64,000 nt of DNA, from NCBI GenBank assembly GCA_017480745.1, contig JAFUSA010000019.1:1-64000 (forward strand), in the 5' to 3' direction. The DNA is from Alphaproteobacteria bacterium. GTDB taxonomy: Bacteria > Pseudomonadota > Alphaproteobacteria > RF32 > CAG-239. The translations under genes and the position numbers were made by a program. Below, piece after piece: positions 3,574 through 64,000 of the stretch. Numbering within the stretch: position 1 is the stretch's first letter; the number at the start of each line of letters is the position of its first letter. The notes beneath the pieces are model-generated. The model saw only the letters and a program-made list of their open reading frames with translations, searched no databases and was not told where the DNA came from.

Positions 3574-3882
3574 TTAATAAGAACAGCGGAAGATAAGTTC
3601 GCGGTTGATGCTGGTATAAGTATCGTTTTCCTTGGTCACATGATTATACTCTGTATATGTGCGGGAATCTTGCCCTTTATCCACCACTTGCACACGATAT
3701 CCCATACATTGCTGATTAGCCAGTTTATAACAGGTAGATAGAGCATATCCACCATTGCAATCAGCGGAATAAACCGGACCGTAAGAATCGCTGTATAAAT
3801 ATCTTACCGAGGGTTCGTACCCTTTAAAAAGCGAGCATCCGCTCAGTAAAATACATGTTGATAATATTATTATTTTTTTCAT
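3574..3882 (-). CDS. Small lipoprotein of unknown function
   Basis: A 102-residue protein with a lipobox signal (LLSGCSLF, lipidated Cys at residue 16), so it should be anchored in a membrane by lipid. The mature part is short, Tyr- and Cys-rich (DCNGG, STCYK, QQCMG, FRCSY), with no family I recognise. It is the only non-prepilin gene in the window with the structured leader described at 3883-4123. RBS is GAGGAAGTAAAAA before ATG. Confidence 0.7.
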   Translation of the reverse strand: MKKIIILSTCILLSGCSLFKGYEPSVRYLYSDSYGPVYSADCNGGYALSTCYKLANQQCMGYRVQVVDKGQDSRTYTEYNHVTKENDTYTSINRELIFRCSY

Positions 3883-4123
3883 TTTTTACTTCCTCTCTAC
3901 TAACTGATTTTACAACTAAAATGCCACCTCTGTGAGGCGGCTGGAAGCTAATAACTATTTCATTCTAAATAGCGCGACATATTCACCTAAGTTTATTTTG
4001 CCGCCTTCCAGCCCCGCTGGAACTATTTTACGCCTCTGTAAGGCGAGAATGAAAGAGGTTATTAGACCCCAGATGAGCTACCTCATCTTGGTTTTAATTT
4101 AGCATAAAAATTCCCAAAGTCAA
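3883..4123 (-). promoter_or_regulatory. Promoter and structured leader (type A) of the lipoprotein gene
   Basis: On the minus strand TTGACT (4123-4118) and TAAATT (4101-4096) form a promoter with a start near 4089. A 5' hairpin (GATGAG/CTCATC) and a CTGGGGT box follow. Long-range pairs are 4065-4058 with 3955-3948 (CTAATAAC) and 4054-4046 with 3966-3958 (AGAATGAAA), separated by the conserved CTC/TAGT internal loop. The stem sequence differs from every other copy but is fully complementary. Confidence 0.75.
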
Positions 4124-4150
4124 ACTATTTTTGCCTCATGTAACAATTTT

Positions 4151-12707: not shown

Positions 12708-13439
12708 TTAATCATCGTATGTTGTTAAGCCGTCCGACCACCAAGAATAATCGACATCAAACATAAACTCGATGTATCTACCTTCTGCTTCTGACTCAAA
12801 CATATCTGCACAGAATTTAACGGCATTATCTACCGATAGCGGAACTTTGGCTATTATTTCTCCGGATTTTGCCACATCGGTATAAACAGCCACAACTCCG
12901 GCTGATGTCCAATCTTGACTCAACAGTTCAATACATGCTTCTTCATTATCTCCAATAGTATAATCGATATAAAACGCCTGACTATCACCGTATTTGGCTT
13001 TATCCTGTGTTCCTAACCCAACCCCACCACCAAAAGGATTGGTAATAGACATAATCTTGCCATCAGTTACGGTAATCATTTCATCAGGGAATATTTTGGC
13101 TTTTTTAACTATCGGGCAGCCATCGCCGTAAGATTGCCCATGGCAACCTAAGGCGTTGCCAGTGCCATCACTAAAACTAGTGCAACGCACTCCGATATAG
13201 TTCTTCTGTGGTCCCCAAAAGGCACGAATATTACCGGCAATAAGAGTTATTTGTTCTATCGTTTTGTTAATACGATACTTCATCATCGCTTTTGAATATC
13301 CGGCGATTCCACCAACCGAAAGCACGCCGATTATGGCCAACACACCAAGCATCTCAATCATTGAACGACCGCTCTGCACGCTTTTCGTCATTGCGAGCGC
13401 AGCGTGGCAATCATTATTTTTTATTTCTAAGTTTCTCAT
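12708..13439 (-). CDS. Type IVb-like prepilin 1 (with REP-derived leader insertion)
   Basis: A 243-residue prepilin. The cleavage site is SG|RSMIE, with Glu at position 5 of the mature protein, followed by the hydrophobic helix EMLGVLAIIGVLSVGGIAGY. The C-terminal domain has cysteine pairs (RCTSF, GCHG, DGCPIV) and the family motif EEACIELLSQDW, then PLSVDNAVKFC, a pattern seen in all seven copies. The leader peptide carries a 13-residue insertion encoded by a REP-like palindrome. This is a single-gene unit without any pilus assembly gene nearby. The most acidic C-terminal tail of the set ends it. Confidence 0.8.
   Translation of the reverse strand: MRNLEIKNNDCHAALAMTKSVQSGRSMIEMLGVLAIIGVLSVGGIAGYSKAMMKYRINKTIEQITLIAGNIRAFWGPQKNYIGVRCTSFSDGTGNALGCHGQSYGDGCPIVKKAKIFPDEMITVTDGKIMSITNPFGGGVGLGTQDKAKYGDSQAFYIDYTIGDNEEACIELLSQDWTSAGVVAVYTDVAKSGEIIAKVPLSVDNAVKFCADMFESEAEGRYIEFMFDVDYSWWSDGLTTYDD
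13386..13412 (-). repeat. REP-like palindrome inside prepilin 1
   Basis: The 27-bp unit (ATTGC...GCAAT core) is identical to copies at 40150-40176 and 47561-47587. It is read in frame as DCHAALAMT within the leader peptide that prepilin peptidase removes. Confidence 0.8.
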
Positions 13440-13684
13440 AGTAAACTTCCTTTCACTTAACTAAATCACTAATAAAAACGATACCGCCCGATAAAGGCGG
13501 CCGGAAGTTAACGACTACTTTGTATAATGTAGTGTGATCTATTAGATTACTCCTATTCAACCACCCTCCGACCAAAGCCGGAAACATTTTAACGTCATAC
13601 ACGACGTATACAAAAGAGGTCGTTACACCCCAGACAAGTTACCTTATCTTAGTTTTACTATATCATAAACAGCTTAAATGTCAA
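13440..13684 (-). promoter_or_regulatory. Promoter and structured leader (type A) of prepilin 1
   Basis: TTGACA (13684-13679) and TATAGT (13662-13657) drive a leader starting near 13650. It has a GATAAG-GTAA-CTTGTC hairpin, a CTGGGGTGT box, then long-range stems 13625-13619 with 13515-13509 (TAACGAC) and 13614-13607 with 13526-13519 (TATACAAA). Inside are an ACGTC hairpin and a TCCGG hairpin; outside is the CTTCCGGCCGCC hairpin next to the gene. The whole gap 13440-13715 is this element. Confidence 0.8.
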
Positions 13685-13715
13685 ATATTTTTTACCTTGC
13701 GGCTTCAAAAGTAAA

Positions 13716-31358: not shown

Positions 31359-31418
31359 CTTATGTCAGTACTTTTTATGAGTATTGACAAATGTTATTTG
31401 CCGATGTGTAAAAAATAT

Positions 31419-31630
31419 TTGACTTTTTTATTTTTTGTGATACCATAACAACAGAACTTCGGTTCGGAGCTCTGATAGGCTCTTACGTTATACGGTGTGT
31501 AACACATCGTCATAGATGAAGTTATAAATTTGTGTAGTAAAGTTATAGGTGGTAATAAGATTACATTTTACTTCGATATTAATTCTAATTGTTTTGATAC
31601 AAAAAAAGGTAATACATGTTCTTAACATAC
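31419..31630 (+). promoter_or_regulatory. Gene-less relic of a type B structured leader
   Basis: TTGACT at 31419-31424 and a weakened TACCAT at 31441-31446 precede CAGAAC-TTCG-GTTC, GGAGCTCTGATAGG and CTCTTACG, the opening of the type B leader at 47304 and 54136. After about 60 nt similarity fades, the long-range partners are largely lost and no prepilin follows before the terminator at 31631. It is probably the remains of a deleted prepilin gene. It fills the 31359-31630 gap. Confidence 0.6.
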
Positions 31631-39880: not shown

Positions 39881-40122
39881 TTGACTTTTAGTTTTTTTAT
39901 GATATAGTAAAAATATGATAAGGTAACTTGTCTGAGGTGTCGAAACCTCTCACGATCGTCGTAAAAGACGTAAAATTCTCCGACTTTATGGTTGGAAGAT
40001 GAGTAAATAAGATAAGTCAAATAGCTCATACTATTTATCGTGATAGTTTCGAACTTCCGACCGCCTTTATTTGGCGGTAATTTTAATGTAATGTCAATAA
40101 GTTAACAGAAAGGAAGTTTGTT
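39881..40122 (+). promoter_or_regulatory. Promoter and structured leader (type A) of prepilin 2
   Basis: TTGACT (39881-39886) and TATAGT (39903-39908) with a 16-bp spacer. The transcript opens with GATAAG-GTAA-CTTGTC (39917-39932), a GNRA-type loop, then CTGAGGTGT. Long-range stems pair 39940-39946 with 40046-40052 (TCGAAAC/GTTTCGA) and 39950-39956 with 40037-40043 (TCACGAT/ATCGTGA). An ACCGCC/GGCGGT hairpin at 40060-40078 ends the element before the RBS AAAGGAAG. Confidence 0.8.
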
Positions 40123-40821
40123 ATGAAAAACTTAGAAATTAAAAATAATGATTGCCACGCTGCGCTCGCAATGACGAAAAGCGTGCAGAGCGGACGTTCA
40201 ATAATAGAGATACTTGGCGTTCTTGCCATAATCGGTGTATTATCGGTTGGCGGAATCGCCGGATACTCGAAGGCAATGCAAAAGTATCGCATCAACAAAA
40301 CAATTGAACAGGTTACGCAAACTGCTGCCAACATACAAACATTTTTTACGAACCAACGCAATGGTTCAATCTCAGGTAAATACGCCGGATTAAACTATAA
40401 TGTTATTCGAAAAGCTAAATTAGCACCTGATGAAATGTGGAACAGCGATAAAAGTAAATTAATCCATTCGTTTGGCGGTGAATTATTTATTGGAACGTCA
40501 GTAAAAGATTCACAAGGTATAATAGATTCTGCTTTTGCACTACAAATTAATGGTCTTGACGAAGAAGCTTGTATTACTTTAGCCACATACGATTGGCGCT
40601 CAATGGGAAATTTGATTGCCGTTGGTATAGTAAAAGATTTACTATTGGCTTTTGATGAAGGAATCAATTTAGATAATTGTAGCGGACAAAATTCCGATAT
40701 GCTATCTTTTTTCTGCCCGAATAATACTGCTAATCCTGTGCCGATACCATTGGATAAAGCAGTTCAATCATGTGAATGTATTGATGATGGTTATTGCGCC
40801 ATCGGTATAACTATGTATTAA
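40123..40821 (+). CDS. Type IVb-like prepilin 2 (with REP-derived leader insertion)
   Basis: A 232-residue prepilin. The conserved core is SG|RSIIEILGVLAIIGVL with Ile replacing Met and Leu at two sites of the helix. The C-terminal domain has the family EEACITLATYDW motif, then PIPLDKAVQSCECIDDG, with two neighbouring cysteines that differ from the other copies. The leader has the 13-residue REP-derived insertion, identical at DNA level to prepilin 1. Confidence 0.8.
   Translation: MKNLEIKNNDCHAALAMTKSVQSGRSIIEILGVLAIIGVLSVGGIAGYSKAMQKYRINKTIEQVTQTAANIQTFFTNQRNGSISGKYAGLNYNVIRKAKLAPDEMWNSDKSKLIHSFGGELFIGTSVKDSQGIIDSAFALQINGLDEEACITLATYDWRSMGNLIAVGIVKDLLLAFDEGINLDNCSGQNSDMLSFFCPNNTANPVPIPLDKAVQSCECIDDGYCAIGITMY
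40150..40176 (+). repeat. REP-like palindrome inside prepilin 2
   Basis: Identical 27-bp unit to 13386-13412, in frame in the leader peptide. Confidence 0.8.
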
Positions 40822-42497: not shown

Positions 42498-43082
42498 TTA
42501 TTTTTTAAATACAAAGTATAAAGATTTATTACCACCACTGCAAGCCGTAACAACTTTATCTACCGCAACCGGAATATCTTTGGCACAGAATATTGTTGAA
42601 GTTGATTCGGAACATATACCATCATATTTAAAATCATATTTGTCTGTATTAATTCCGCCCAAAGAAATCCCCGCCAGATTAAGATTTGTCCAATCTTGTG
42701 TTCCTAATTCAATGCAATCACTCTCAGAAATTTCCTCTAAATTGATATAAAAAGACGGTGTTTCTCCATGCATATACAACGTATTACCCCAAACATCTTT
42801 AATATAATTTCCATCCCACATTTCATCGGGCACAAGCTTGGCTTTTTTTATAACACTATCATCATTCAATCCACTATAATTTCTCTGGTTTGCAAAAAAT
42901 GTCCTCACATTTCCGGCAATGAGGGTTATTTGCTCAATAGTTTTGTTAATGCGATATTTTTGCATTGCTTTTGAATATCCGGCAATACCACCGACACTCA
43001 AAACACCAATAATAGCCAACACGCCAAGCATTTCTATCATCGAACGTCCGGATTCATTATTTTTTATTTTTAAGTTTCTCAT
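42498..43082 (-). CDS. Type IVb-like prepilin 3
   Basis: The shortest of the set at 194 residues. The leader lacks the REP insertion: KIKNNESG|RSMIEMLGVL, which shows the ancestral spacing. The C-terminal half carries SDCIELGTQDW and PVAVDKVVTACSGGNKSLYF, with cysteines at both motifs. The single gene has its own promoter and leader. Confidence 0.8.
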   Translation of the reverse strand: MRNLKIKNNESGRSMIEMLGVLAIIGVLSVGGIAGYSKAMQKYRINKTIEQITLIAGNVRTFFANQRNYSGLNDDSVIKKAKLVPDEMWDGNYIKDVWGNTLYMHGETPSFYINLEEISESDCIELGTQDWTNLNLAGISLGGINTDKYDFKYDGICSESTSTIFCAKDIPVAVDKVVTACSGGNKSLYFVFKK

Positions 43083-43325
43083 AATAAACTTCCTTTCATT
43101 TAATTAATCACTAATAAAAACAATACCGCCCAATAAGGCGGCCGGAAGTTGAGAACTACTTTACACGAAATAGTGCAGTCTATTAAATCACTCTTATTCA
43201 ACTGCCTTCCAGCCAAAGCCGGAAATATTTTACGTCTGTATGCGACGCGTGTAAAAGAGGTTCTCACACCTCAGACAAGTTGCCTCGTCGTAGTTACATG
43301 TTATCATAAAAAATTAAAAAGTCAA
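43083..43325 (-). promoter_or_regulatory. Promoter and structured leader (type A) of prepilin 3
   Basis: TTGACT (43325-43320) with a weak TAACAT (43303-43298). GACGAG-GCAA-CTTGTC hairpin, then CTGAGGTGT. Long-range stems: 43265-43260 with 43156-43151 (GAGAAC) and 43255-43248 with 43167-43160 (TTTACACG). It occupies the whole gap between the prepilin and the divergent ccrM. Confidence 0.8.
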
Positions 43326-43415
43326 ATACTTTTTGTAAAAGTTCGCAAACACTTAAAAGAAAAAATTTCCAAAATTAACAAAATTATAACCTTATTTACT
43401 GTATGTTGACGGTAA

Positions 43416-47245: not shown

Positions 47246-47269
47246 ATTAAGCTCATAAGAATTTTTTAT

Positions 47270-47533
47270 TTGACTTTTAGTTTTTTTGTGATATAGTAAA
47301 ATCAGAACTTCGGTTCAGGGCCTTAGTAAGCTCTTATGAAACTCGGCATATTCTATGTCGTTATGTGTATTGATTTATCTCCGACTTGGTTGGGGAGCGT
47401 TTTGCGGATGTACAGGGACTTTGTTCTAAAGGTAAAACGGATCATCGAGTTTCATATGATTTACTAACTTCCCGGCCGCCGTTTGGCGGTTAGATTTTTA
47501 TTAATAGATAATTTTAACAGAGGAGATAAAATT
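47270..47533 (+). promoter_or_regulatory. Promoter and structured leader (type B) of prepilin 4
   Basis: TTGACT (47270-47275), TATAGT (47292-47297). The transcript opens with GAAC-TTCG-GTTC. Long-range stems: 47323-47329 with 47461-47467 (TTAGTAA/TTACTAA) and 47336-47345 with 47446-47455 (ATGAAACTCG/CGAGTTTCAT). A CCGCC/GGCGG hairpin ends the element near 47490. The 5' end differs from type A, the architecture is the same. Confidence 0.8.
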
Positions 47534-48202
47534 ATGATAAACTTAGAAATAAAAAATAATGATTGCCACGCTGCGCTCGCAATGACGAAAAGCGTGCAGA
47601 GCGGACGTTCAATGATTGAGATGTTGGGCGTGCTGGCTATAATCGGTGTGTTATCGGTTGGCGGCATCGCTGGTTATTCCAAGGCAATGCAAAAATATAG
47701 AATCAATAAGGCTATTGAGCAAATTACTCTCATTGCCGGTAATGTGCGGACTTTTTTTGCTTCACAAGGAAATTATGAAGGAGTGAATGATGATAAAGTA
47801 ATTAAAAAAGCAAAACTTGTGCCTGATGAAATGTGGGATGGTAATAATATAAGAAATGTGTTTGGGGATACGGTTCTTTTACACTCAACAGGTAAATTTA
47901 AAAGGGGAGATGCGAAGGCTTTTGTTATTGAATACGTTACACCTACAGACAATGAGGAAGTTTGCATAGAATTATTTACTCACGATTGGAGTGATGCCGG
48001 AATAAGATCCATATTAGCGCATCCTGTTTATACCAAAGCTAAAAAATTACCAATTGACATAAATGATGCAGTGACCATGTGTTCTAATATAAGTGAAGCT
48101 GGAAAACAAGGATTAGGTTCTTCATTTGCCATGCTTTTATCATTTGAAACTAATGATGAATGTCTTAAAGGGTACGATGGGTATGGTGTATGCGGATTAT
48201 AA
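47534..48202 (+). CDS. Type IVb-like prepilin 4 (with REP-derived leader insertion)
   Basis: A 222-residue prepilin; the ATG at 47534 follows AGGAGATAAAATT, so an in-frame upstream ATG in the leader is rejected. SG|RSMIEMLGVLAIIGVLSV core and the REP-derived insertion are present. C-terminal NEEVCIELFTHDW, PIDINDAVTMC and NDECLKGYDG give the Cys pattern. KAIEQ replaces the usual KTIEQ. Confidence 0.8.
   Translation: MINLEIKNNDCHAALAMTKSVQSGRSMIEMLGVLAIIGVLSVGGIAGYSKAMQKYRINKAIEQITLIAGNVRTFFASQGNYEGVNDDKVIKKAKLVPDEMWDGNNIRNVFGDTVLLHSTGKFKRGDAKAFVIEYVTPTDNEEVCIELFTHDWSDAGIRSILAHPVYTKAKKLPIDINDAVTMCSNISEAGKQGLGSSFAMLLSFETNDECLKGYDGYGVCGL
47561..47587 (+). repeat. REP-like palindrome inside prepilin 4
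   Basis: Identical 27-bp unit to 13386-13412, in frame in the leader peptide. Confidence 0.8.
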
Positions 48203-53210: not shown

Positions 53211-53900
53211 TTATTTTTTAAACCCGATAGCAAAGTAATTATTATTGCCATCTGCACAAATTTTGGTTGCTTGCTCTAAAGATATTTCCGTAATCGGACT
53301 GTTTGGTCCGGCGGTAATGTAAGTAGAGTTATCGGTAGTGCCTAAACCTACTTTTGGACCATCATATAGACCGATCACTAAATCTGCATCAGTTGTCACA
53401 GCTACATAATAAAAGCCGGCGCCGGTGATTGAACTCCAATCCTGTGTTGCCAGTTCAATACAAGCCTCTTGCGGAAGATGGTCGTATCGTTGATAAAATA
53501 CCTTATTATCTGTTCCGCTTAATGTTCCTATATCTCCTACACCTCCAAATTCATTATTTATGGTAACTCCACCTTGTTTTGAAGTAAGCATTTCGTCTGG
53601 AACTAATTTTGCTTTTTTGATAATAGAGCAACCGCTTCCGTTACAATCATTCAACGTACCACTACTACCTAAATTACAACTACATTCAATTCCATCATAA
53701 TTTTTCTGCGAACCGAAAAAAGCTTGCACATTGGCGGCAATCAAACTGATTTGTTCAATGGTTTTGTTTATGCGATATTTCATCATCGCCTTTGAATATC
53801 CGGCAATTCCACCTACCGATAAAACGCCGATGATAGCCAGCACGCCCAACATTTCTATCATTGAACGACCTGTTTCATTTTTTAGATTTAAGTTTTTCAT
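53211..53900 (-). CDS. Type IVb-like prepilin 5
   Basis: A 229-residue prepilin without REP insertion: NLKNETG|RSMIEMLGVLAI. Thr precedes the Gly where others have Ser. The C-terminal domain has EACIELATQDW and EISLEQATKICADGNNNYFA, plus ECSCNLG and NGSGCS near the N-terminal third. The ATG at 53900 follows GGGAGATAAAATT; the in-frame TTG upstream is less likely. Confidence 0.8.
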   Translation of the reverse strand: MKNLNLKNETGRSMIEMLGVLAIIGVLSVGGIAGYSKAMMKYRINKTIEQISLIAANVQAFFGSQKNYDGIECSCNLGSSGTLNDCNGSGCSIIKKAKLVPDEMLTSKQGGVTINNEFGGVGDIGTLSGTDNKVFYQRYDHLPQEACIELATQDWSSITGAGFYYVAVTTDADLVIGLYDGPKVGLGTTDNSTYITAGPNSPITEISLEQATKICADGNNNYFAIGFKK

Positions 53901-54170
53901 AATTTTATCTCCCAAATTAGAGGTTAATACACTAAAACAAACTGACCGCTAAACAGCGGTCGGGAGAGCTGACAAATCATACTAAGTGAAACGATTTTCG
54001 CAAATCTTTAAGCTAAAGCTCTGAACATCCATTTGCGACTCCCCGACCCAAATCGGAGATATTTATCATATCAATAACGATGTTCTAACAACACCGCACT
54101 TAGTAAGAGCCTGTCAGAGCTCCGAACCAAAGTTCTGATTCTATTATAACATAACCTTCTTAAATGTCAA
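53901..54170 (-). promoter_or_regulatory. Promoter and structured leader (type B) of prepilin 5
   Basis: TTGACA (54170-54165) and TATAAT (54148-54143), a consensus promoter. GAAC-TTTG-GTTC hairpin, then GGAGCTCTG. Long-range stems: 54117-54112 with 53974-53969 (CTGACA/TGTCAG) and 54104-54097 with 53988-53981 (ACTAAGTG/CACTTAGT). The terminal hairpin is GACCGCT/AGCGGTC. Confidence 0.8.
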
Positions 54171-54215
54171 ACATTTTCTACCAAGTTGTTTGCCCAAAAT
54201 CTAAATACAACAATA

Positions 54216-61604: not shown

Positions 61605-62225
61605 TTAGTAGAATTTAAACCAAATGGTATTGCTGCCACTTATACAAGCATTTGTTGCAATATTAATCGGCATTGGTATTGATAATTTAGATCCTCCTAA
61701 ACATGCAGTTGCCATATTAGTACCTATCATTCCCTTGCAACCAGTATATTGATTCCGATTGTAAGAATTTATCCCCATAGCAAATAACCCAGAATCAGAA
61801 CTCCAATCATAGCTTGCAATCGCAATACAAGCTTCCTCCGGTATATCTCTGATGGTTATAGAAAATGCTTTATAATCAGAGTATTTCTCCTTCTCTGCCC
61901 AAGCAACTTCAAAATATCCGTCAAATGAATGTTTAATAAACCCATCCTCATCAAATTTCATTCCGTTCGGTAGTAAATGAGCTTTTTCAAATACATTCTT
62001 GTTCATTTTACTCCAACCAACATGATAATAGCTTGGTTGGTTATGAAAAAAAATACGAACATTTTGCGAAATATGTGTAATCTGTTCTATGGTCTTGTTA
62101 ATCTTTATTTTCATCATTGCTTTAGAATAGCCGGCGATACCACCAACACTAAGCACTCCGATAATAGCCAATACTCCCAGAATTTCTATCATTGAACGTC
62201 CGCTTTGATGAGTATAATTTTTCAT
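61605..62225 (-). CDS. Type IVb-like prepilin 6
   Basis: A 206-residue prepilin with a short leader (MKNYTHQSG|RSMIEILGVL), the shortest of the set, and no REP insertion. The helix ends KAMMKIKINKTIEQI rather than KYRINK. The C-terminal part has EEACIAIASYDW and PMPINIATNACISG, with an added Cys pair (YTGCKG, TACLGG). Confidence 0.8.
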   Translation of the reverse strand: MKNYTHQSGRSMIEILGVLAIIGVLSVGGIAGYSKAMMKIKINKTIEQITHISQNVRIFFHNQPSYYHVGWSKMNKNVFEKAHLLPNGMKFDEDGFIKHSFDGYFEVAWAEKEKYSDYKAFSITIRDIPEEACIAIASYDWSSDSGLFAMGINSYNRNQYTGCKGMIGTNMATACLGGSKLSIPMPINIATNACISGSNTIWFKFY

Positions 62226-62477
62226 AGTAAACTTCCTTTCGTAAAAATTATTATTAAAGACTAAAAGACAACCACCTAATGAGGTGGCTGGAAGCTCACA
62301 ACTATCTATAACAATAGCGTTGCATATTCAGCACATAACTTTATTTTGCAACCTTCCAACCATAAACAGCCGGAAGAATTTTAACGTCATTCAAGACGGT
62401 TATAGAGAGGCTGTGAGACCCCAGATGAATTTTACCTCATCATATTTTTATAATACCATAAAATTCGCGAATGTCAA
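62226..62477 (-). promoter_or_regulatory. Promoter and structured leader (type A) of prepilin 6
   Basis: TTGACA (62477-62472), TATTAT (62455-62450). GATGA...TCATC hairpin, CTGGGGT box, long-range stems 62417-62412 with 62300-62295 (CTCACA) and 62406-62399 with 62312-62305 (TCTATAAC). The terminal hairpin is CCACCT/AGGTGG. Confidence 0.8.
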
Positions 62478-62497
62478 ATATTTTTTGTCAGTGCATT

Positions 62498-62994: not shown

Positions 62995-63708
62995 TTATTC
63001 ATAATACAATGTAAAGGCATTGGTGTCAGCGCACCAATTTGTTGCAACATCAATAGAAACAGGCATAGAAGTTGAACTATAAAGATTAGCTTTATTTCCA
63101 GTTGTAGCCGCGGAATGAGAACCTAACATCAAACCAACAACTCCTGCGCTTACAGAACTCCAATCCTGAGTTACTAAATCAACACAAGCCTCTTGAGGTA
63201 TTCCTCGCAATCTAATGGCAAATATCGCACCACTTCCTTGTATATTAATTTCCCCGCCAAATAAATTTCCCATGCCATTAATAGGTTTGTTAGCTGTATT
63301 ATTAATTGCCAAAGGGTCCTCAGACCTAAAAGAAGAATCTATCATATCATCAGAAACTAATTTAGCCTTTCTTATTATATGAGCTCCCTCACAAGGTTTA
63401 TTATTACTTCCTGCCAACACACCCCAACAAGCCCCTTCACTATTAAGGCTGCTATATCTTGTTGAACTGGGTTGATTGGCAAAAAACGAACGAATATTTT
63501 GTGATGTAATAGTAATTTGTTCAATAGTTTTATTAATTCTGTACTTCATCATTGCTTTTGAATATCCGGCGATTCCGCCAACGGATAACACACCGATGAT
63601 AGCCAACACGCCCAACATTTCTATCATAGAGCGTCCGGTTTGTGCATTTTTTGTATCAATTACGAGTGCAGTGCGACAATTTATATTTTTAATTTCTAAG
63701 TTTTTCAT
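62995..63708 (-). CDS. Type IVb-like prepilin 7 (with decayed REP insertion)
   Basis: A 237-residue prepilin. The leader holds NINCRTALVIDTKNAQTG|RSMIEM, whose DNA at 63657-63682 is a diverged copy of the REP unit. The C-terminal domain has QEACVDLVTQDW and PVSIDVATNWC, with GACWGV and PCEGAH cysteines. The closest neighbour in style is prepilin 6, though the C-terminal domains differ. Confidence 0.8.
   Translation of the reverse strand: MKNLEIKNINCRTALVIDTKNAQTGRSMIEMLGVLAIIGVLSVGGIAGYSKAMMKYRINKTIEQITITSQNIRSFFANQPSSTRYSSLNSEGACWGVLAGSNNKPCEGAHIIRKAKLVSDDMIDSSFRSEDPLAINNTANKPINGMGNLFGGEINIQGSGAIFAIRLRGIPQEACVDLVTQDWSSVSAGVVGLMLGSHSAATTGNKANLYSSTSMPVSIDVATNWCADTNAFTLYYE
63657..63682 (-). 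repeat. Diverged REP-like element inside prepilin 7
   Basis: The bases align with the intact unit with several transitions (for example TTGCGAGCGCAG against TTACGAGTGCAG). The palindrome is weaker but the frame is kept. Confidence 0.6.
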
Positions 63709-63951
63709 AATAGACTTCCTTTCATTTAATTAATTCACCAACAAGACATAACCGCCCGATAAGGGCGGCCGGAAGTTCACAACTATCCAAATTAAATAGT
63801 GTAGCCTATTGGAGTTCTCTTATTCAGCTACCTTCCAGCCGACACTGGAAACATTTAACGTCTATAAAAGACGAATTTGGAGAGGTTGTGACACCTCAGA
63901 CAAGTCACCTCATCATGCTTTTTATTATATAACATAAAATATAAAAGTCAA
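63709..63951 (-). promoter_or_regulatory. Promoter and structured leader (type A) of prepilin 7
   Basis: TTGACT (63951-63946), TATAAT (63929-63924). GATGAG-GTGA-CTTGTC hairpin, CTGAGGTGT box, long-range stems 63891-63886 with 63782-63777 (TCACAA) and 63881-63874 with 63793-63786 (TCCAAATT). Beyond 63951 only AT-rich sequence is left in the window. Confidence 0.8.
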
Positions 63952-64000
63952 GCATCTTTTGCAAAAGTGCTCAAACCTTTGCATTTAGCACCGAAAACAC

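Follow-up and report, generated by a model that had tools for sequence, protein, structure and literature searches.

The leader at 39881–40122, which precedes a prepilin gene in the 64,000-nt stretch of DNA analysed here (the window), is best read as a cis-acting, self-specific attenuator RNA of the sRNA-Xcc1/C4 type that has expanded across prepilin genes. We give this sequence-based reading a probability of about 60%. The leader folds into covarying helices, some of which compete for the same strand, and its two long-range strands pair specifically within each copy. Its relatives carry terminators, its 3′ half is akin to sRNA-Xcc1, and the ribosome-binding-site target found beside that RNA has been lost.

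Leader copies and the genes behind them

The initial annotation had described eight such leaders (at 3883, 13440, 39881, 43083, 47270, 53901, 62226 and 63709). All are present (Table 1), and they proved to be a small sample of the more than 120 copies, of two types, seen in the same genome (G000; 1.6 Mb, 34 contigs, 98.9% complete), whose close relatives by prepilin sequence are metagenome-assembled genomes of rumen and gut Alphaproteobacteria. With the 39881–40122 leader as blastn query, 40 scored matches were obtained in its own genome, and a covariance model built from 43 own-genome copies (R1) returned 109 matches, among which the scores show a distinct gap at about 78 bits. A profile search, made after the surroundings of the matches had been fetched, gave about 94 strong type-A leaders, and at least 88 of them precede prepilin genes (83 by a pattern test, with L022, L191, L199, L223 and L231 added by eye); a contig end truncates the type-A leader L205. 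The others stand before the lipoprotein-like gene at 3574–3882, a small protein and an ankyrin-repeat-like protein, among others. When 20 prepilin genes without an upstream R1 match were checked, 19 had a type-B leader, two of which were read only in part owing to the start codon chosen, and one had a deleted remnant; with 12 more from a type-B profile search, type B has at least 31 copies. Type B has the architecture of type A with a UUCG 5′ hairpin. Hence the eight annotated leaders do share one architecture, as had been claimed, but those at 47270 and 53901 form a type of their own. Such a leader precedes almost every prepilin gene examined, and the genome holds at least 150 prepilin genes among 182 first-look candidates, about one per 10 kb. 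In the literature available to us, we found no papers on leaders of prepilin genes or on the expansion of prepilins in this bacterial group.

The N-termini of these prepilins are near-identical (GRSMIEMLGVLAIIGVLSVGGIAGYSKAM, for example in 40123–40821). In many of them (for example 12708–13439, 40123–40821 and 47483–48202) the cleaved pre-sequence also contains in-frame, repeat-like inserts such as NDCHAALAMTKSVQSGRS or IKSHPSQSLAKANASRDLQINFNQAEDALTIPAESRHDYKCGSATQSGRS, which resemble repeats inserted into the leader peptide. The window further contains an orphan type-B 5′ module at 31408, a probable relic; its role as a trans decoy was considered and dropped, and no cognate 3′ strand is present elsewhere in the genome.

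The family is not restricted to the species: blastn with one leader as query was almost empty in 25 genomes of the genus, but R1 had matches in 21 of the 21 same-genus genomes searched and in one order-level relative. Across the class, 21 of 289 genomes had matches, the own genome included. In related genomes the genes behind the leader encode prepilins, lipoproteins, outer-membrane proteins and small proteins of unknown kind, so that the leader is not tied to pili. A Pfam-less small protein family (MSEDKIDFDGNISICHTIEYYE...) repeatedly follows it there (L177, L179, L263, L267, L270 and L276), and at L183 and L281 it stands before a signal-peptide-bearing, exonuclease-like protein (RNase_T, PF00929).

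Table 1. Positions of the leader elements and of other copies in the window
Feature	Position	Strand	Evidence or remark
Sigma-70-type promoter	TTGACT 39881–39886, TATAGT 39903–39908	+	sequence
H1, 5′ hairpin GATAAG-gtaa-CTTGTC	39917–39932	+	all cells paired; predicted transcript start
H2, hairpin GAGGT-GTCGAA-ACCTC, loop is the a1-like strand	39934–39949	+	43/43 paired
P2 5′ strand (a1-like) TCGAAAC, partner 40046–40052	39940–39946	+	two-sided changes, all 5 core pairs
P3 5′ strand (b1-like) TCACGAT, partner 40037–40043	39950–39956	+	two-sided changes, all 8 pairs
H4, hairpin CGTC-GACG	39957–39970	+	99.4% of cells paired, 3 pairs with two-sided change
Attenuator segment 1 (TCTCCGAC), partner segment 2	39977–39984	+	three-way covariation in relatives
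Attenuator segment 2 (GGTTGGAAG), common to 1:2 and 2:3; closing stem 5′ strand	39990–39998	+	
sRNA-Xcc1-like domain	39990–40070	+	Rfam 32.0 bits, sub-threshold (gathering score 53)
P6, hairpin with AAUA/AAUA internal loop	39999–40029	+	all 6 pairs with two-sided change; Rfam alignment
P7, hairpin ACTAT...ATAGT, loop contains P3 3′ strand	40030–40047	+	95.8% of cells paired
P3 3′ strand (b′-like) ATCGTGA	40037–40043	+	covariation scan, alignment, exact complement
P2 3′ strand (a′-like) GTTTCGA	40046–40052	+	covariation scan, alignment, exact complement
Attenuator segment 3 (CTTCCGACC), closing stem 3′ strand, overlaps terminator base	40054–40062	+	
Terminator-like hairpin CCGCC-GGCGG (segments 3:4), then T-rich stretch	40061–40077	+	
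Shine-Dalgarno AAGGAAG	40110–40116	+	alignment; nearly constant among copies
Prepilin gene	40123–40821	+	Pfam Bundlin PF05307, E 6.4e-06
Type-A leader of lipoprotein-like gene 3574–3882	3883–4127	-	R1 144.2 bits at 3923–4087
Type-A leader of prepilin 12708–13439	13440–13689	-	R1 164.1 bits
Orphan type-B 5′ module (promoter, H1, H2, b1, H4) without 3′ module	31408–31517	+	
Type-A leader of prepilin 42498–43082	43083–43330	-	R1 166.1 bits
Type-B leader of prepilin at ~47.5 kb	47267–47530	+	nhmmer 246.5 bits, type-B profile of which it is a seed
Type-B leader of prepilin 53211–53915	53903–54199	-	nhmmer 275.2 bits, type-B profile of which it is a seed
Type-A leader of prepilin 61605–62225	62226–62482	-	R1 126.8 bits
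Type-A leader of prepilin 62995–63708	63709–63955	-	R1 161 bits

Covariation and mutually exclusive helices

The promoter common to the leaders that the initial annotation had proposed is indeed there, with TTGAC or TTTAC in 87 of 88 copies. In 73 of 88 copies, 36 nt separate the start of the -35 element from the 5′ hairpin, and because this spacing is fixed, transcription should start at H1. Downstream of it, an unbiased scan of column pairs over 43 copies placed two long-range helices first, with a best APC-corrected G score of 88 against at most 21 in column-shuffled nulls, and P2, P3 and P6 were ranked highest by this structure-free scan, far above those nulls. When the full structure was laid over the own-genome copies, 96.6% of cells paired, two-sided changes occurred in 31 of 54 pairs, and the covariation score was 0.438, compared with 0.181 for shuffled columns and at most 0.085 for slid partners. 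Type B was aligned separately and again P2 and P3 headed the list, with four pair types and most pairs intact in 27 of 27 copies. For related genomes, 57 distinct sequences were aligned, with 97.0% of cells paired, two-sided changes in 44 of 47 pairs and a score of 0.691 (0.238 shuffled, at most 0.109 slid); the counts lean towards the model structure because this alignment (A4) was fitted to it. The eight pairs of stem halves listed earlier were all located, each half with its exact reverse complement on the other side, and the argument built on them, that compensatory change reveals a selected structure, is fully supported by the covariation in the own genome and by its recurrence in the 57 sequences. 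P2 overlaps the tops of H2 and P7, and in six copies a change of A31 to G together with U161 to C keeps P2 at the cost of the P7 pair 142–161, so the long-range duplex is under selection in its own right.

The competing pairings, namely the closing stem, the second hairpin and the terminator, had been overlooked in the initial annotation. The closing stem, GGYYGGAAG:CUUCCRRCC, is paired at all nine positions in 43 of 43 copies. Segment 2, which forms its 5′ strand, can instead pair with segment 1, making up the 3′ half of a local hairpin. Thus the 1:2 and 2:3 helices are mutually exclusive and have a strand in common; when one column was taken from each of segments 1, 2 and 3, the three covaried jointly in relatives (GCG 18, AUA 10, GUA 9, UAU 6), which is a hallmark of attenuators. 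Segment 3 in turn provides the base of the terminator hairpin, so that this base is common to the closing stem, the putative antiterminator, and to the terminator. In relatives this hairpin is a canonical intrinsic terminator, with a helix that is 99.6% paired and covaries, and with T at an average of 8 of the 10 nt after it. Own-genome type A has a poorer T-run, with 6.8 T in 10 nt and a longest run of 4.2 on average, so that termination could be weak there, or the hairpin could act on translation instead. The two alternative folds, built by hand, are near-equal in energy (-38.4 and -37.2 kcal/mol on average).

Attenuators of the trp and erm type have mutually exclusive 1:2, 2:3 and 3:4 helices that end in a terminator. 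The pilin leaders have the same exclusive helices with the terminator at the end, but differ from trp and erm in an additional self-complementary a1/b1 module; a leader peptide was not noticed in an unsystematic look.

Relation to sRNA-Xcc1 and C4

A scan of the window at Rfam gathering scores returned only STnc490 and tRNA, and nothing on the leaders, which agrees with the earlier remark that no known riboswitch core could be recognised. At relaxed thresholds, sRNA-Xcc1 (RF02221) was the only repeated match and always fell in the same register. Its model gave 36 full-length matches (positions 1–87) in the own genome, nearly all in leaders, the best at 34.7 bits (E 1.6e-4), below the gathering threshold of 53 bits. 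The proposal of a new class without an Rfam match has therefore to be withdrawn, because the 3′ half matches sRNA-Xcc1 at 32–35 bits in many copies; no match in the own genome reaches the gathering score, although one relative found with R1 does. That relative is L321, at 56.2 bits, and other R1-found loci in alphaproteobacteria had 44.1 (L323), 51.7 (L325) and 39.7 bits (L317). Since L321 lies above the RF02221 threshold, the leaders are connected to sRNA-Xcc1 through intermediates. In the direct comparison, R1 did not detect the bona fide gammaproteobacterial sRNA-Xcc1 loci (best E 0.28).

The likeness extends to the whole layout of the 3′ half, where closing stem, AAUA/AAUA-loop hairpin, second hairpin and linker follow in identical order. 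Rfam models only this 3′ half (87 positions), as an sRNA, and the pilin leader further comprises the partner strand on the 5′ side, segment 1 as competitor, and the terminator. However, 30 sRNA-Xcc1 loci collected from Pseudomonadota mostly also have, upstream, a hairpin with complementarity between its loop plus the following strand and the 3′ part of sRNA-Xcc1. In a test of cognate against non-cognate duplexes, these bona fide loci gave p=9e-12 with the upstream partner, p=3e-6 with the next gene's ribosome-binding site and 0.29 with a control region. Their neighbours include the phage antirepressor-type Bro-N, KilA-N, P22_AR_N and pRha, and DNA similar to these loci was found in Vibrio, Escherichia and other phages. 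At the phage-type loci L067–L096, a hairpin resembling an intrinsic terminator, with a T-run, lies between the a1/b1 module and the sRNA, and a short a1/b1 RNA may be made there, placed as isrK (RF01394) is in C4 loci; in the pilin leader H4 sits at the place of this mid-leader terminator.

C4 RNA, for which the c4-a1b1 motif (RF03163) is found upstream, has the same organisation: the loop of an upstream hairpin and the strand after it (a1, b1) find their complements (a′, b′) in the linker and in a hairpin loop of a closed three-helix RNA on the same transcript as the gene. Both motifs were listed by Weinberg et al. 2010 (PMC2864571). The position of H2 is that of c4-a1b1 in C4 loci, and Rfam c4-a1b1 matches lie upstream of C4 in all three loci scanned. 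The C4 model itself (RF01695) had no match in G000 and matched 20 of 150 genomes. On 25 C4 loci the duplex test was significant for the upstream partner (p=6e-13) and the ribosome-binding site (8e-7) but not for the control (0.55). The layout of C4 plus a1b1 is thus common to sRNA-Xcc1 and the pilin leaders; in those parts of the literature that name both and that were available to us, sRNA-Xcc1 and C4 are given as separate annotations.

In the pilin leaders, too, a′/b′ are complementary to the upstream a1/b1, and the 3′ strand pairs best with the 5′ strand of its own copy in 40 of 43 own-genome copies (p=8e-26) and in 54 of 58 copies from relatives (p=3e-38), p-values that count related copies as independent. 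At C4, gammaproteobacterial and phage loci a′/b′ also match the ribosome-binding site of the next gene, whereas in the pilin leaders this complementarity gave no signal in the own genome (p=0.44) or in relatives (p=0.16). C4-style antisense control of the ribosome-binding site was accordingly rejected for them; that target is lost, the element leads prepilin genes, and a terminator overlaps the closing stem instead. The group-1 C4-like family of Acinetobacter baumannii resembles the pilin leaders in its many genomic copies and variable a′ sequences (PMC5320573), but its copies are proposed to act in trans, whereas those described here are more numerous and are leaders of protein genes. These comparisons suggest that an antisense module of phage type became a cis attenuator and was amplified more than 100-fold in one genome, before pilus-subunit genes. 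They also redefine an Rfam family, because sRNA-Xcc1 becomes the 3′ half of a larger C4-type RNA whose 5′ partner is absent from the present model and whose alphaproteobacterial form is a terminator-bearing leader.

Proposed control and alternative readings

In the attenuator that we propose, the transcript would begin at H1. In each copy the 5′ module (the H2 loop a1 with strand b1) pairs with the linker a′ and the hairpin loop b′ of its own 3′ module, which is closed by the GGYYGGAAG:CUUCCRRCC stem and carries the conserved AAUA/AAUA hairpin. Segment 2 pairs either with segment 1, as the local hairpin, or with segment 3, as the closing stem, and segment 3, when free of the closing stem, would supply the base of an intrinsic terminator that lies immediately ahead of the gene. 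A formed closing stem would then act as antiterminator and allow read-through, whereas the 1:2 hairpin with the terminator would lead to a stop, so that termination would be truly controlled by these exclusive helices. The a1/b1 pairing is possible in both proposed states and could favour either the stop, by nesting with the 1:2 hairpin and the terminator, or read-through, by forming a pseudoknot stacked on the closing stem. A common trans-acting factor may read the conserved core. If this holds, the control of a giant prepilin repertoire becomes testable. In addition, a single cell provides more than 100 self-pairing RNAs as a natural set.

A possible but rather doubtful alternative is that the leader is a ligand- or protein-binding element, a riboswitch or operator, in which one factor binds a core made of the H2 stem and the AAUA/AAUA loop and controls all prepilin genes, with P2, P3 and P6 varying because any complement suffices. 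The invariant core of many copies and the terminator platform, typical of riboswitches, would fit this, and P6 is as variable as P2 and P3, so that variability alone proves no function in specificity. However, the genes downstream (prepilins, lipoproteins, outer-membrane and small unknown proteins, and in relatives phage antirepressors) have no metabolite theme, and pairing of a hairpin loop with a linker serves antisense recognition in C4; a ligand-binding riboswitch is neither shown nor needed. The leader could instead be an antisense RNA acting in trans, as Rfam and the literature describe sRNA-Xcc1, with its 3′ module being cut out to repress other mRNAs. In favour of this, sRNA-Xcc1 was seen as an 88-nt RNA (PMC2996969), and bona fide sRNA-Xcc1 loci have a matching target at the ribosome-binding site. 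For C4, cleavage by RNase P at the base of the closing stem and pairing of a′/b′ with the mRNAs that it targets are reviewed together with the many C4-like sRNAs of A. baumannii, a family with variable a′ (PMC5320573). We nevertheless regard this reading as improbable for the pilin leaders, because their own ribosome-binding site is not a target and because every 3′ strand would be held by the 5′ strand of its own copy, to which it is complementary.

The initial annotation had left it undecided whether the selected structure is RNA or single-stranded DNA. The fixed-distance promoter, RNA-type tetraloops, terminator and Shine-Dalgarno sequence mark it as RNA, and they make it very unlikely that the element is a single-strand recombination or cassette site, either attC-like as in integrons or for pilin variation, even though sRNA-Xcc1 sits in integron cassettes of Xanthomonas (PMC12444791) and prepilin genes are massively amplified in the own genome. 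An integron attC site was moreover rejected on its boxes: RYYYAAC/GTTRRRY is not kept, and the P2 pairs beside the AAC/GUU core are of several types. That the leader is a passive stability element, or duplicated baggage carried along as the prepilin genes multiplied, is hardly credible; nearly all own-genome copies precede prepilins, which makes joint copying possible, but compensatory changes occur throughout, three segments covary together, and in related genomes the leader precedes unrelated genes. The cis-acting attenuator thus remains our preferred reading.

A further and unlikely role of a1/b1 would be that of a per-copy identity tag, with leader RNAs of the same tag repressing each other by silencing in trans. 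If so, a freshly duplicated prepilin gene would be silent until its tag diverges, and of its more than 150 prepilins the cell would express a chosen set. Between nearest leader pairs, P2 has changed more than the unpaired spacers (p about 1e-3, 15–20 independent pairs) even though any substitution in P2 calls for a matching one some 130 nt away; this pattern is a hint that distinct tags are selected for. Over all pairs, the local hairpin P6 varies roughly as much as P2 and P3 do, and the 86 distinct P2/P3 combinations compare with 84.4 expected if the two were independent. A specificity barcode was hence dropped as a proven feature.

Two other features of the window lie outside the leaders. 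A structured transcript with GAGCCCTCTTGTGAGGGCTCTTTTC at its end may arise from about 290–505, where Rfam gave no match. On the minus strand, 14–124 matches STnc490 (RF01405) above threshold at 65.1 bits, in sequence that has a 16-bp inverted repeat, AAAACCTCCTTTATAT...ATATAAAGGAGGTTTT.
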